64,000 nucleotides of DNA from Zeimonas arvi. GTDB taxonomy: Bacteria > Pseudomonadota > Gammaproteobacteria > Burkholderiales > Burkholderiaceae_E. Positions 57,561 to 64,000 of this stretch are shown one piece after another (within the stretch, counting starts at the first letter, position 1; every line of letters begins with the position of its first letter). A program made the position numbers and the translations under genes. The stretch covers positions 1-64,000 of the forward strand of contig NZ_VDUY01000007.1 of the NCBI RefSeq assembly GCF_008039575.1, written 5' to 3'. The notes beneath the pieces were generated by a model. It did no database searches and was not told where the DNA came from. It saw only the letters and a program-made list of their open reading frames with translations.

Positions 57561-59687
<2,127 letters not shown>

Positions 59688-59891: not shown

Positions 59892-61553
59892 TCAGCCGAT
59901 CAGCTGCCAGTGTTCGCCTTCGAGCTCTGCCAGGCCGTCGTCGCGAAGCTTGAGCAGGTGGGCACTCAGCGACCGCTTGGCCACCGGCCGGATCACGGGA
60001 TCCACGTCGTCGTAGGCGGTCATCACCAGTTCGTCGACCGTGACCGGCTTTCCAGCCGCGCTCAGCGCGTCGATGACCTTGGCTTCGCGCCCCATTCGAT
60101 GCGCGATCAGCCGTGCGACCTCCCGCCTGCCTCGCGAGATCACGTGCCCGTGCGCCGGCAGGATGAAGTCGAAGGGTTCGGTGGCCAACCGGTGCAGCTG
60201 CGCAACGTAGTCGCGCATGTCGCCGTCGGGCGGCGTGATCACGGTGGTCGAGCCGCTCAGGATGTGGTCGCCCGAGAAGAGCAGGCCGTCTTCTTCGAGC
60301 AGCAGGCAGATGTGGTTGGACACGTGCCCCGGCGTGTGCAAGACCCGCAGCGTGGAGTCGCCGACCCGCAGGCACTCGCCGTCTTCCAGCGTGCGCTCGG
60401 GCACGAAGGCCCATTGCGGATCGAAGTCCGGCCCCGTCGGGCGGCCGAGGATGGGCGCGCCGGTCAGGGCCTTCAGCGGCGCCGCACCCGGCGCGTGGTC
60501 GGGATGCGCGTGAGTGCAGACGATGGCTTTCAGGCCGCCGCCCACGATGGCCGCGATCCGCTCGATGTGGGCGGGCTCGTCGGGCCCGGGGTCGATGACC
60601 AGGTAGTCGCCCGGCTCGCCGATGATGTAGGTGTTCGTGCCGGGGCCGGTCATGCGCCCGGGATTCGGGGCGGTGAGCCGCTGCACGTGGCGCAGGAGCG
60701 GCACCGCGCGCTCGTGCTGCCAGTCGAGCGCGTGGACGATCTGACCGTCGGGGCTCACCAGTTCGAGCTCGCCGAAGGGCAGTTCGTCCTCGCTGAAGCG
60801 GGTCACATCCCCCCGCAGCAGGCCCGCGCGCGGGCACGAGAGCCAGTTGCCGGGATTCTCCTCGCAGTGACGCAGCAGGGCTTCGACGCTCTCGTACCGG
60901 GTCAGCGCGCGCAGCGTGCGGATCGTGGGAAAGATCATGTCGAATCCGCCGCGCTCGTGTCGCTCGAGCGCGTTTCGTGGCAACACCCAGGTCGGCTCGA
61001 ACTGCTCGCCCTCGTCGGCGACCGGGTGTTGCCCCTCGGGCATTCGCGCCACGAAGAACTGCGTGTCGAAGCGCTTGGGCATGTCGCGGTCGGTGACCCA
61101 GCGGCTGAGCCAGTACACCTCGTCGATCGCGAGCGCCAGGCCCTCGGCGGCCACGCGATCGTAGAAGCCGCCGTCGTCGTGGCGGGACATCCGGGCCGCG
61201 ACCTCGGCCAGGTCGACGCCAGTGCGCGCGGGGCGCGCGAGGAGCACGCCGAGTTCCTCGAAGGCCTCGCGCACCGCGGCGGTGGCGAAGTCGAGCAGGT
61301 CGGGCGACTGGTCGATGCGCGAGGCGATGACTGCCCGTGCAGCCGGCGAGCCATCGAGCGGATCGACGACACCGCCGGGGAACACGAAGGCGCCCGGCGC
61401 GAAGCTCGCCTTCGCGGAACGACGGGTCATCAGCACTTCGGGACCCTGCGGGCCGTCGCGCATCAGCAGGATGGTGGCAGCCGGGCGTGTGGCGACCGGG
61501 TCGCGCCAGTCGCGCAGGAACTTCTCGCGGCGAACGCGGCTCTCGGGCGTCAT
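59892..61553 (-). CDS. NUDIX hydrolase – metallo-beta-lactamase fusion protein
   Basis: 553 aa. The N-terminal NUDIX domain (about 20–215) has the box split by a long insert, FVFPGGVVDP then REAFEELGVLL (95–105), as in NUDT8/19-like CoA-type NUDIX enzymes. The C-terminal MBL domain (about 285–480) has the metal motif THAHPDHAPG (HxHxDH, 348–353), LHTPGHVSNHICLL and FSGDHIL, like LACTB2 endonucleases, and ends in a winged-helix-like region. The ATG overlaps the stop of the upstream His-rich gene (ATGA). The substrate is unknown. Confidence 0.85.
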   Translation of the reverse strand: MTPESRVRREKFLRDWRDPVATRPAATILLMRDGPQGPEVLMTRRSAKASFAPGAFVFPGGVVDPLDGSPAARAVIASRIDQSPDLLDFATAAVREAFEELGVLLARPARTGVDLAEVAARMSRHDDGGFYDRVAAEGLALAIDEVYWLSRWVTDRDMPKRFDTQFFVARMPEGQHPVADEGEQFEPTWVLPRNALERHERGGFDMIFPTIRTLRALTRYESVEALLRHCEENPGNWLSCPRAGLLRGDVTRFSEDELPFGELELVSPDGQIVHALDWQHERAVPLLRHVQRLTAPNPGRMTGPGTNTYIIGEPGDYLVIDPGPDEPAHIERIAAIVGGGLKAIVCTHAHPDHAPGAAPLKALTGAPILGRPTGPDFDPQWAFVPERTLEDGECLRVGDSTLRVLHTPGHVSNHICLLLEEDGLLFSGDHILSGSTTVITPPDGDMRDYVAQLHRLATEPFDFILPAHGHVISRGRREVARLIAHRMGREAKVIDALSAAGKPVTVDELVMTAYDDVDPVIRPVAKRSLSAHLLKLRDDGLAELEGEHWQLIG

Positions 61554-62860
61554 GCTCCTGCTCCTTGCGCGGGCGCCTCGCCCGGCAGCCCGGCGAGGCG
61601 GGCCGGGGGAGAGAAGCGCTCGCCGTAGCGCTCGGCGAGTTTGAGCGATCGAGCGGCGAATAGTGATGCGCCGACGCGGTCGGCATAGGCGATCGCGCCA
61701 CCCGAGGCCTCGGGAAATCCGACGCCGAGGATGGACGACAGGTTGGCGTCGGCCGCCGAGGCGACCACACCTTCCTCGAGGCAGCGCATCGACTCGAGCG
61801 CAAGGCGATAGAGCAGGCGATCCCGGACGTCCTCGGCGGGAATGGAGACGCGGCGCCGCTCGAAGACCTTGAGTCCGGACCAGAGCTCGGGCGGTTCGCC
61901 TTCCGCGTAGTCGTAGAAGCCTCGCCCGGCCTGGCGCCCCATCCGGTTGAAGCCGTGGGCCATCTTCTCGAGGACGTAGATCGCCTCCTCGGTCATTCCG
62001 TGCGGCTGCACAGTGGGCGCGGAATCGTGAACGTGATCGTGCGCGTGGCCGTGCCCGGGGCAGTGCGCATGCCGATGCGCGTGGTCGTGCTCACACGCGT
62101 GGTCCTCGCCGTGCCCATGTGCGTGATCGTGTGCATGCGAGTGATCGTGCCCATGTCCATGCCCATGCTGATGTCCATGCTCATGTCCATGATCGGTTTG
62201 CGTGCCGTGCAGAAGCCGATCGGCTTCCGCGAGTGACATCGCGTCCATCATGGCGAGCGGGCCCGTCTCCATGCCGGCTTCGATCGCGCTGGATTCGATC
62301 AGCGATGCGGGAACACCTTCGCCGAGCAGCGCGAGTCCCTCGTTCGCATAACAGCGTGCAAGTCGCCTCGCATGGCAACCCGCCGTGTCGGCCACCAGGA
62401 TGGTTCGGACTCTGGCCTGCGCAAGGAGATTGCGCAGCGTTTCGATGTGCGCGGGCGCGCCGCCGCCGACGACCTCCGCCAGGCGCAGCGGCCCGGTTCC
62501 TGCGCAGATCGAGAGACCGATCAGCCGTCCGGGTTCGTGAAGCGCCCTGGCGAGCGGCGCAACGGGGTCGTTGCCCGCGATCGCGACCATCGGGACAGAC
62601 CGGGGCAGGTCGTGTTCGAGGCGGTGAAGGGACTCGGCGCGCCGAGATGCCGGGCAGCCCGATGCTTCGACGAGAATGTCCGCGTCGGCGCGAGCCTCGG
62701 CCTTCGATTCGGAGGGGATGCGTTGCACCGTTGCGCCCGCGTCGACCAGGCGATCGAGGAGGCGCGCGGCGACGGGATCGTCCCCGATCGCGACGATCGT
62801 CGCAGAGCCGCGGGAAGGCGCGGCCGGTTGCCCAGACGAGGCTGCGCGAGGAGTGTTCAT
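61550..62860 (-). CDS. 3-hydroxyacyl-CoA-dehydrogenase-like protein with histidine-rich insert, probable pseudoenzyme
   Basis: 436 aa. Residues 20–160 resemble the NAD domain but the GxGxxG loop is lost (IVAIGDDPVAA). By comparison with FadB, the catalytic His is Ser117 (RLIGLSICAGTGP), the paired Glu is kept (Glu129) and the Asn of FVNR is gone (TAGCHARRLARC). Residues 224–278 hold 25 His, alternating with Gly/Asp/Ala. The C-terminal 3HCDH domain is well kept (AGRGFYDY, MRCLEEGVVASAADANLSSI, GVGFPEASGGAIAYADRVG). It probably binds metal ions and no longer acts as a dehydrogenase. Start ATG 62860. Confidence 0.75.
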   Translation of the reverse strand: MNTPRAASSGQPAAPSRGSATIVAIGDDPVAARLLDRLVDAGATVQRIPSESKAEARADADILVEASGCPASRRAESLHRLEHDLPRSVPMVAIAGNDPVAPLARALHEPGRLIGLSICAGTGPLRLAEVVGGGAPAHIETLRNLLAQARVRTILVADTAGCHARRLARCYANEGLALLGEGVPASLIESSAIEAGMETGPLAMMDAMSLAEADRLLHGTQTDHGHEHGHQHGHGHGHDHSHAHDHAHGHGEDHACEHDHAHRHAHCPGHGHAHDHVHDSAPTVQPHGMTEEAIYVLEKMAHGFNRMGRQAGRGFYDYAEGEPPELWSGLKVFERRRVSIPAEDVRDRLLYRLALESMRCLEEGVVASAADANLSSILGVGFPEASGGAIAYADRVGASLFAARSLKLAERYGERFSPPARLAGLPGEAPAQGAGA

Positions 62861-62946
62861 CGTTGGTATCCGGATACGGCGCGGTAGCGCCATGCAATCC
62901 GGAATCATAACGCCGCCGGAACGCCCCCCGGCGTGCCCGGCCGTCT

Positions 62947-64000
62947 TCAGACCGAAAGGATGCTGCGCCGACCGGTGATGCCGTTGCGGCGCCTCGCGGG
63001 CGGCGCGTGGTGGCCCAAGACCTCGATCACCTGGGTGTCCTGAACCAGGCTCATCCCGTGCTCGGCATGCAGAAGGCGCTCGCGGTCGACGGGCCGGCAC
63101 AAACCGAAGCCCTGCGCGTAATCGACGTTCAGGTCCATGAGCGTGCGCACGATCTCGGCGTTCTCGGCCCATTCGGCCACGCAGGCCATGCCGATCTCGT
63201 GGGACAGGTCGACGATGGCGCGCGTGATTGCGTGGTTCGCGGGGTTCAGGTTCACATCCCGAATGAAGCTGCCGTCGATCTTCACGAAATCCCCGGGCAA
63301 TTCCTTCAGGTAGCTGAATGACGTGTAGCCGGCACCGAAGTCGTCGAGCGCCACCCGGGCGCCGAAGGATTTCACCCTGTCGACGAAGCGGCGCGTCGTT
63401 TTCAGGTCGTACAGCGCCACGCTCTCGGTGATCTCGAAGCAGACGCGTTGCGTGGCGTCGGGATGATTGCGAATGAGCGCGATCGTGTCCTGCAGGAACT
63501 TCTCGTCGTTCAGCGACGCGCCACTGAGGTTGATCGTGCAAAAGCCCAACCGCTCGCGATGGTCCGGATTCTCGTCGAGCCACTCGAGAGTGGAGCGCAG
63601 CACCCAGCGATCGATCTGGCTCATCAGGCCGTTGCGCTCGGCGGCGGCGATGAACCGGCCGGGCGGCACCACCGCACCGGCACCATCGCGCATGCGCACC
63701 AGCACCTCGTAGGAGAGGCTGGCATACGGGGTCCGCAACGACACGATGGGCTGCAGCTGCGTGAAGAAGTTCTCCACCGGCAGTCGCTCGCGCATGTTCG
63801 CCACGAGCTTGATCTCGTCGAGGTAGGTCGTGAGCTCCGAGCTGCGCGAGCCCAGGGCGACCACCGTGGAGCCACCCGCCTTCTTCGCCTCGGCGCAGGC
63901 GCGGTCCGAGGCGGTGAGCGCGTCGCGCGGGGTCATCTCGGGCGCAAGCTGGATGACGCCGATGCTCGCCGCGACACTGAATGCCTTGTCCTGATGCTGG
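62947..64000 (-). CDS. GGDEF–EAL cyclic-di-GMP protein, 5' end outside window
   Basis: Partial: about 351 codons to the stop. The first residues are the end of a GGDEF domain (FSVAASIGVIQL then SDRACAEAKKAGG). A complete EAL domain follows (about 45–300 of the visible part): SYEVLVRM (EVL in place of EAL), INLSGASLNDEKF, FEITESVA, VALDDFGAGYTSFSYLKELP and VKIDGSFIRD. The metal and catalytic residues appear intact, so phosphodiesterase activity is likely. A short Arg-rich tail ends at the stop. Confidence 0.87.
   Translation of the reverse strand, partial: QHQDKAFSVAASIGVIQLAPEMTPRDALTASDRACAEAKKAGGSTVVALGSRSSELTTYLDEIKLVANMRERLPVENFFTQLQPIVSLRTPYASLSYEVLVRMRDGAGAVVPPGRFIAAAERNGLMSQIDRWVLRSTLEWLDENPDHRERLGFCTINLSGASLNDEKFLQDTIALIRNHPDATQRVCFEITESVALYDLKTTRRFVDRVKSFGARVALDDFGAGYTSFSYLKELPGDFVKIDGSFIRDVNLNPANHAITRAIVDLSHEIGMACVAEWAENAEIVRTLMDLNVDYAQGFGLCRPVDRERLLHAEHGMSLVQDTQVIEVLGHHAPPARRRNGITGRRSILSV

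Follow-up and report, generated by a model that had tools for sequence, protein, structure and literature searches.

The window analysed here is a stretch of 64,000 nucleotides of Zeimonas arvi (positions 1 to 64,000 of contig NZ_VDUY01000007.1), and the element in question is a gene on its minus strand that encodes part of a β-oxidation enzyme with a histidine-rich loop. Genomes are denoted below by G numbers and loci by L numbers. The original prediction, made from the letters alone, described the gene as a degenerate 3-hydroxyacyl-CoA dehydrogenase with an insert of 25 histidines. The features of the gene are as follows; for the four quartet residues, the first count is for the rows of the family alignment, and the second, from another alignment, compares rows inside and outside the family.

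61550..62860 (-): reduced FadB/FadJ-type α-subunit ortholog with a His loop, 436 residues (Pfam 3HCDH; orthology by locus)
62372..62806 (-): degenerate NAD-binding/catalytic domain, about residues 19-163 (alignment; no 3HCDH_N match; predicted ordered α/β)
62510-62512 (-): Ser117 at the position of the catalytic His (alignment)
62219..62221 (-): D214, first quartet residue (53 of 53; 38 of 38 versus 0 of 17)
62207..62209 (-): H218, second quartet residue (53 of 53; 38 of 38 versus 0 of 17)
62027..62191 (-): His-rich tract, residues 224-278, 25 His among 55 residues, predicted disordered (sequence count; structure prediction)
61967..61969 (-): E298, third quartet residue (53 of 53; 38 of 38 versus 2 of 17)
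61955..61957 (-): H302, fourth quartet residue (53 of 53; 38 of 38 versus 1 of 17)
61592..61837 (-): second helical 3HCDH-like half, about residues 342-423 (NCBIfam and phmmer matches, alignment of relatives, structure prediction)
62904..62909 (-): TATGAT, a box like a promoter -10 element, 44-49 bases 5' of the ATG (TAT[GC]AT conserved in reduced loci)

The open reading frame (ORF) has no internal stop, and the C-terminal 3HCDH domain (PF00725) matches at 38.1 bits against the Pfam cut-off of 22.1, so the claims of an unbroken frame and of a retained C-terminal domain hold. NCBIfam FadJ/FadB models match parts of the protein with scores far below their cut-offs, and the best matches in the PDB are mycobacterial FadB proteins (the 4b3h and 7o1l family), homologous over the C-terminal 3HCDH region (phmmer E-values of 5.8e-37 and 3.3e-37). 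In the alignment with seven intact relatives, the NAD-binding GxGxxG motif (GAGMMG) is lost and Ser117 replaces the histidine of the His-Glu pair that we take to be catalytic, as had been predicted, while Glu129 is retained; the SNTSTLPI segment is also gone. A lost Asn had been counted as a further sign of inactivity. HADH has Asn at that column, but it is Ser in all seven intact relatives and Arg here, so we rejected this argument. No Pfam match to 3HCDH_N was found in the window protein at E-values up to 10 (the full-length relative L009 reaches 200 bits), and there is none to the enoyl-CoA-hydratase (ECH) domain, which L009 and L015 have. The predicted structure has a mean predicted local distance difference test score (pLDDT) of 83.5 and a predicted template-modelling score of 0.82, and the degenerate NAD domain still appears in it as an ordered α/β domain.

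Graded reduction at one locus

The neighbours of the gene in the window are:

59892..61553 (-): NUDIX and metallo-β-lactamase (MBL)-fold hydrolase (Pfam Lactamase_B, BLACT_WH and NUDIX), whose ATG overlaps the stop of the 3HCDH gene by 4 bases
62947..64000 (-): 3' part of a 7TM-GGDEF-EAL gene (domain annotation), upstream, extending beyond the window end
57561..59687 (+): presumably PNPase, judging from its sequence, a conserved locus marker (conserved gene cluster C2)

Full-length and reduced forms share this gene order, namely the 7TM-GGDEF-EAL gene, the 3HCDH gene and the NUDIX-MBL gene, with PNPase and rpsO on the opposite strand; the NUDIX-MBL gene was found in 14 of 15 genomes tested and is missing in G033. 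Gene order identifies the window gene as the positional ortholog of a full-length FadB/FadJ-type α subunit with intact motifs.

Among 53 family genomes that are at least 90% complete, 46 contain the 3HCDH gene at 1e-30, and by frame length and motifs these are 22 full-length forms, 21 reduced forms and 3 genes cut by contig ends (G018, G069 and G074). According to Pfam, full-length members have ECH_1, 3HCDH_N and 3HCDH domains, and the reduced ones are shortened to different degrees. For example, G021 (L015) has ECH_1 and 3HCDH and lacks 3HCDH_N, and G022 (L035) has a weakened hydratase (54 bits versus about 100) and lacks 3HCDH_N. In the window and in G003, the hydratase is absent and the NAD domain survives in degenerate form (3HCDH_N in G003 reaches an E-value of 0.0027, under the cut-off), L075 retains a truncated 3HCDH_N (40.6 bits, profile 66-180), and 3HCDH is the sole Pfam match in G001, G033, L098 and L118, the last of which belongs to Quisquiliibacterium transsilvanicum DSM 29781. 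In the G-numbered rows of genus g15 the frames have 274-358 residues, with 14-59 residues ahead of the first helix, and the reduced orthologs other than the window have 14-73 there. A degenerate hydratase seen by eye at the N-terminus of G072/L118 was dropped, as Pfam gave it no support. One full-length relative (L019 / L086, from G005) has a frame that is interrupted close to where the NAD domain ends, which may be an assembly error or a real break.

The loss extends to the partner subunit. A dedicated thiolase is encoded upstream of full-length genes, and its ortholog (75-100% identity) occurs in 22 of 22 full-length genomes, also in the cut G074, and in only one of the 21 reduced genomes, G021, which retains the hydratase domain; these counts come from genomes that are not independent data points. 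The other 20 reduced genomes and the cut G018 are without it, and in 8 of those 20 the closest other thiolases either fall below the threshold or do not exceed 49% identity. Of the 7 family genomes that lack the 3HCDH gene, G030 alone carries the thiolase. In the window genome (G000), the best thiolases are 38-44% identical to the dedicated one, and no thiolase motif was seen within the window or over roughly 16 kb upstream. The same genome retains other 3HCDH genes, including a FadB-like frame of 716 residues on contig 2.

Since the hydratase domain and the dedicated thiolase are gone and the NAD/catalytic domain is degenerate, the window protein is unlikely to work as a FadB/FadJ-type enzyme. 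A dehydrogenase that is still active with an unusual catalytic residue would agree with the retained Glu129 and with a degenerate domain that is predicted ordered and conserved between the window and G003 (71 of 162 residues; ratio of nonsynonymous to synonymous substitution rates, dN/dS, of 0.41). However, the NAD glycines, the catalytic His, the SNTSTLPI segment and the thiolase partner are lost, and the few residues before the first helix in other reduced orthologs speak against it as well, which makes this explanation highly improbable.

How often the reduction occurred was examined with two trees. In the linker-free gene tree (69 rows, 196 columns), 24 of the 25 reduced rows form one clade (98/97), with G021 apart, and the grouping of G072 with three full-length rows from the same genus is narrowly rejected (approximately unbiased test, p 0.048). 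This tree speaks for few origins of the reduction, or for long-branch attraction, which has to be considered because several of the reduced rows have long branches. When the other reduced rows are left out, G072 is placed closest to full-length proteins of its own genus, and the window, G003 and G001 are likewise placed closest to those of theirs, in each case without strong support. In the PNPase tree (40 rows), which stands in for a species tree, the reduced rows are dispersed, and 5 changes are counted, at least 3 of them forced by well-supported branches. If lost domains are assumed not to return, G021 and the window need at least two reductions. For labelling, the cut genes G016 (L045, at a contig start) and G074 (L082) were set to reduced and full in the PNPase tree, and they fall inside the reduced and the full-length clade, respectively; in the gene tree L019 was labelled full despite its broken frame. 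L044, from the NAD-less G021, counts as reduced in the trees, while it stands in the full list of the upstream-box count below.

The histidine tract and the quartet around it

The count of 25 His among 55 residues (224-278), given in the original prediction, is exact. Elsewhere the window protein has 8 His in 381 residues, and the binomial chance of such a tract is about 2e-27. The tract is a low-confidence stretch between two helices, predicted to be disordered (pLDDT of about 45-52).

Codon use in the tract had been called normal, which does not agree with the counts: GGC makes up 2 of 9 Gly codons in the tract, compared with 100 of 132 in three neighbouring genes (p 0.002). The trend is family-wide, with GGC at 190 of 517 Gly codons within the tracts of 40 genes versus 769 of 1290 outside. 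The tracts are spelled with mixed codons, which disfavours a recent expansion of a DNA repeat. A chance or frameshift origin was rejected, given the open frame, the binomial value and the mixed codons. As a side observation, the avoidance of GGC at 62027-62191 and in the 39 homologous genes looks as if synonymous variation kept the repeat stable.

In order to follow the tract among relatives, we searched 61 genomes (the own one and related ones); 47 gave matches at 1e-5, many of which are ordinary FadB genes, and among the 30 best places translated, most encode full-length hydratase-dehydrogenases in which the linker at the corresponding position is rich in His. Across a collection of 84,980 species, a scan with the single protein as query found nothing, while an alignment query gave 109 relatives; the 80 best, at 79 loci, were retained. 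The linker is measurable in 76 of these 79 loci: 44 have 10-62 His in 46-177 residues, and the remaining 32 have 0-3 His in 17-36 residues, including three family members without a tract (L073, L076 and L078). Many of the tract-bearing loci encode enzymes with intact catalytic motifs, and the loop lies between two helices of the C-terminal domain in full-length and reduced forms alike. Thus homologues with and without the insert exist, and the tract is present in related genomes; the statements that such an insert is unknown in this fold and that it is tied to degeneracy do not hold, and we discarded the notion of an insert unique to the degenerate protein.

The record titles of the 44 tract loci are mostly Burkholderiales, Burkholderiaceae or Betaproteobacteria, with Lautropia, Quisquiliibacterium and Limnobacter. 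A few titles are at odds with sequence and gene order (L060 "Actinomycetes", L101 "Thiocapsa", L096 "Bordetella parapertussis") and probably belong to misassigned bins. Of 300 genomes drawn across the order, 23 gave matches at 1e-45 or better, and all 16 matches outside the family of the window have linkers of 17-28 residues with 0-2 His. Within the family, all 25 measured reduced rows have 23-81 His and none is without a tract, while the 28 full-length rows have 0-62. The three full-length members without linker His are G032, G062 and G064 (L056, L137 and L139; linkers of 32-36 residues), which are natural controls for the function of the tract; L073, L076 and L078 are loci of these same genomes.

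On the helices before and after the tract, four residues are spaced i/i+4 (D214xxxH218 and E298xxxH302), and both helices are seen in the predicted structure. This quartet is invariant in all 53 family rows (28 full, 25 reduced), and in the second alignment it is complete in 38 of 38 family rows, the tract-less L073, L076 and L078 among them; the quartet therefore does not need the tract. As a proposal, it may form a metal site. The stretch best conserved with enzymes outside the family is the first-helix region, NEGxALLGEG.

Selection and promoter-like elements

For seven reduced pairs (window-G003 included), 13 of the 14 flank dN/dS values lie within 0.05-0.25, the exception being 0.44 for G078-G031, while four full-length pairs give 0.00-0.12, with synonymous sites near saturation in some pairs. 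The pair L039-L045 was skipped as the gene is cut, and ratios within the tract were not used because the alignment there is arbitrary. From these ratios, the reduced copies are judged to be under purifying selection, although less constrained than the full-length enzymes.

A TAT[GC]AT box lies within 110 bases upstream in all 15 reduced loci whose start could be set (five of them close kin), at 34-96 bases from the start. It also occurs in 14 of the 20 loci in the full list, where three genomes are repeated and L044 is included. The chance rate is 1.0% of random 110-mers of reduced loci. For G031 (L040), whose start is unsettled, the upstream stretch examined has no such box. The conserved box suggests that the window gene is transcribed from a promoter of its own, one that many full-length relatives share. 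A perfect 12-base palindrome, GTATCCGGATAC, lies just 5' of the gene start (62870-62881); it is not in the upstream stretches of 9 relatives and was dropped as a conserved element.

These data bear on the explanation that the tract is tolerated low-complexity sequence in an exposed loop and the reduced gene a slowly decaying relic with no metal function. The variable length and predicted disorder of the tract, its absence from three full-length members and the faster evolution of the reduced flanks would all fit such a relic. However, the reduced gene is found in 21 of 53 family genomes, the branch lengths of 12 of 13 rows are far beyond those of a young pseudogene, frames are open with dN/dS mostly at 0.05-0.25, the quartet and the promoter-like box are kept, and every reduced row has the tract. 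We consider a relic unlikely.

A possible role in metal handling

Compared with a FadB/FadJ α subunit, the window protein lacks the hydratase, the NAD site, the catalytic His and the thiolase partner, and has the His loop and the quartet in addition. We somewhat favour the reading that the protein is a pseudoenzyme, retained to bind metal as a buffer, store or donor, with the metal binding itself being inferred. In this bacterial family the β-oxidation α subunit carries a His-rich loop between two C-terminal helices; in the window the hydratase domain and the thiolase partner are gone and the NAD site is lost, with the helical scaffold, the loop and the quartet kept. Divalent metal ions (Zn, Ni, Co or Cu), several at a time, may be bound by the flexible loop, and a defined site may exist at its base, at the quartet; in the cytosol the protein may buffer or store metal, or donate it. 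The store or chaperone offered by the original prediction thus fits best, given the His-rich reduced rows, the purifying selection and the missing catalytic residues and thiolase, while its link between insert and degeneracy falls away. Nothing found pointed to its other suggestion, an acyl-CoA sensor, and no test aimed at it was made.

The adjoining NUDIX-MBL hydrolase would be the first candidate for a client, because its start overlaps the stop of the window gene (ATGA, 4 bases) and the metallo-β-lactamase fold usually needs metal. The overlap is found in the window and 8 other loci of the 20 measurable in the reduced list, some with alternative starts, and in 2 of 21 in the full-length list.

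Tracts of the H-x-H-x kind are known from other metal proteins and resemble those of Hpn, HypB, UreE and ZIP loops. No homology of the window protein to the GTPase or transporter cores of HypB, CobW and ZIP proteins was found; only Zip appears on the tract, at an E-value of 0.34, under the cut-off, and the scaffold differs. Among open-licence papers, the only experimental precedent found for metal binding in an ECH-3HCDH protein is Legionella Lpg1596. It has 672 residues and 16 His, binds Ni-NTA resin without a His stretch, and the authors point to six surface His (PMC12211046). By its description, it is of the same domain type.

Several points weigh against a role in metal handling. Tract length varies as widely as 46-177 residues across the 44 loci, the reduced flanks evolve faster than the full-length ones, and G032, G062 and G064 retain the quartet without tract His. 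Moreover, the NUDIX-MBL hydrolase also adjoins tract-less enzymes, the Lautropia-like G033 kept its stub without that gene, and no metal-transport or regulator gene was recognised beside the locus, where only part of the neighbours is annotated.

The stub could instead serve as a subunit with a structural role or one in CoA binding, for example as dimer partner or regulator of another FadB in the cell, or by handing acyl-CoA to the NUDIX hydrolase; the tract would then be incidental. The retained part is the helical C-terminal domain, NEGxALLGEG is its best conserved stretch, some NUDIX enzymes cleave CoA and the neighbour has both NUDIX and metallo-β-lactamase domains, and the 716-residue FadB-like frame would offer a partner. 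As quartet and tract are specific to the family and no reduced row is without a tract, we regard such a subunit as distinctly unlikely.

A bolder version of the metal reading, which we hold to be possible but doubtful, is a new family of metal-handling pseudoenzymes that gained a DxxxH/ExxxH site and a His antenna, discarded the enzyme complex in several lineages and kept the module as a buffer or as a dedicated donor for the hydrolase. If this is true, the full-length relatives would have two roles, the degradation of fatty acids and the holding of metal. In the open-licence papers, we did not find the graded reduction at one locus, the quartet, or their combination with the tract described, while the scaffold is a known fold. 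What the locus offers is an enzyme that loses its chemistry while an added His-rich loop stays, with intact, partly and fully reduced forms in related species. Because these forms share one locus, the purpose of the tract is directly testable with natural controls, namely full-length members without a tract and reduced members with one.

As a minor observation on the neighbourhood, a gene upstream of the EAL gene (cluster C8, e.g. L057:6087-7001), which has no Pfam match at an E-value of 0.001 and is presumably similar to a GNAT-type acyltransferase, is kept in 29 loci.

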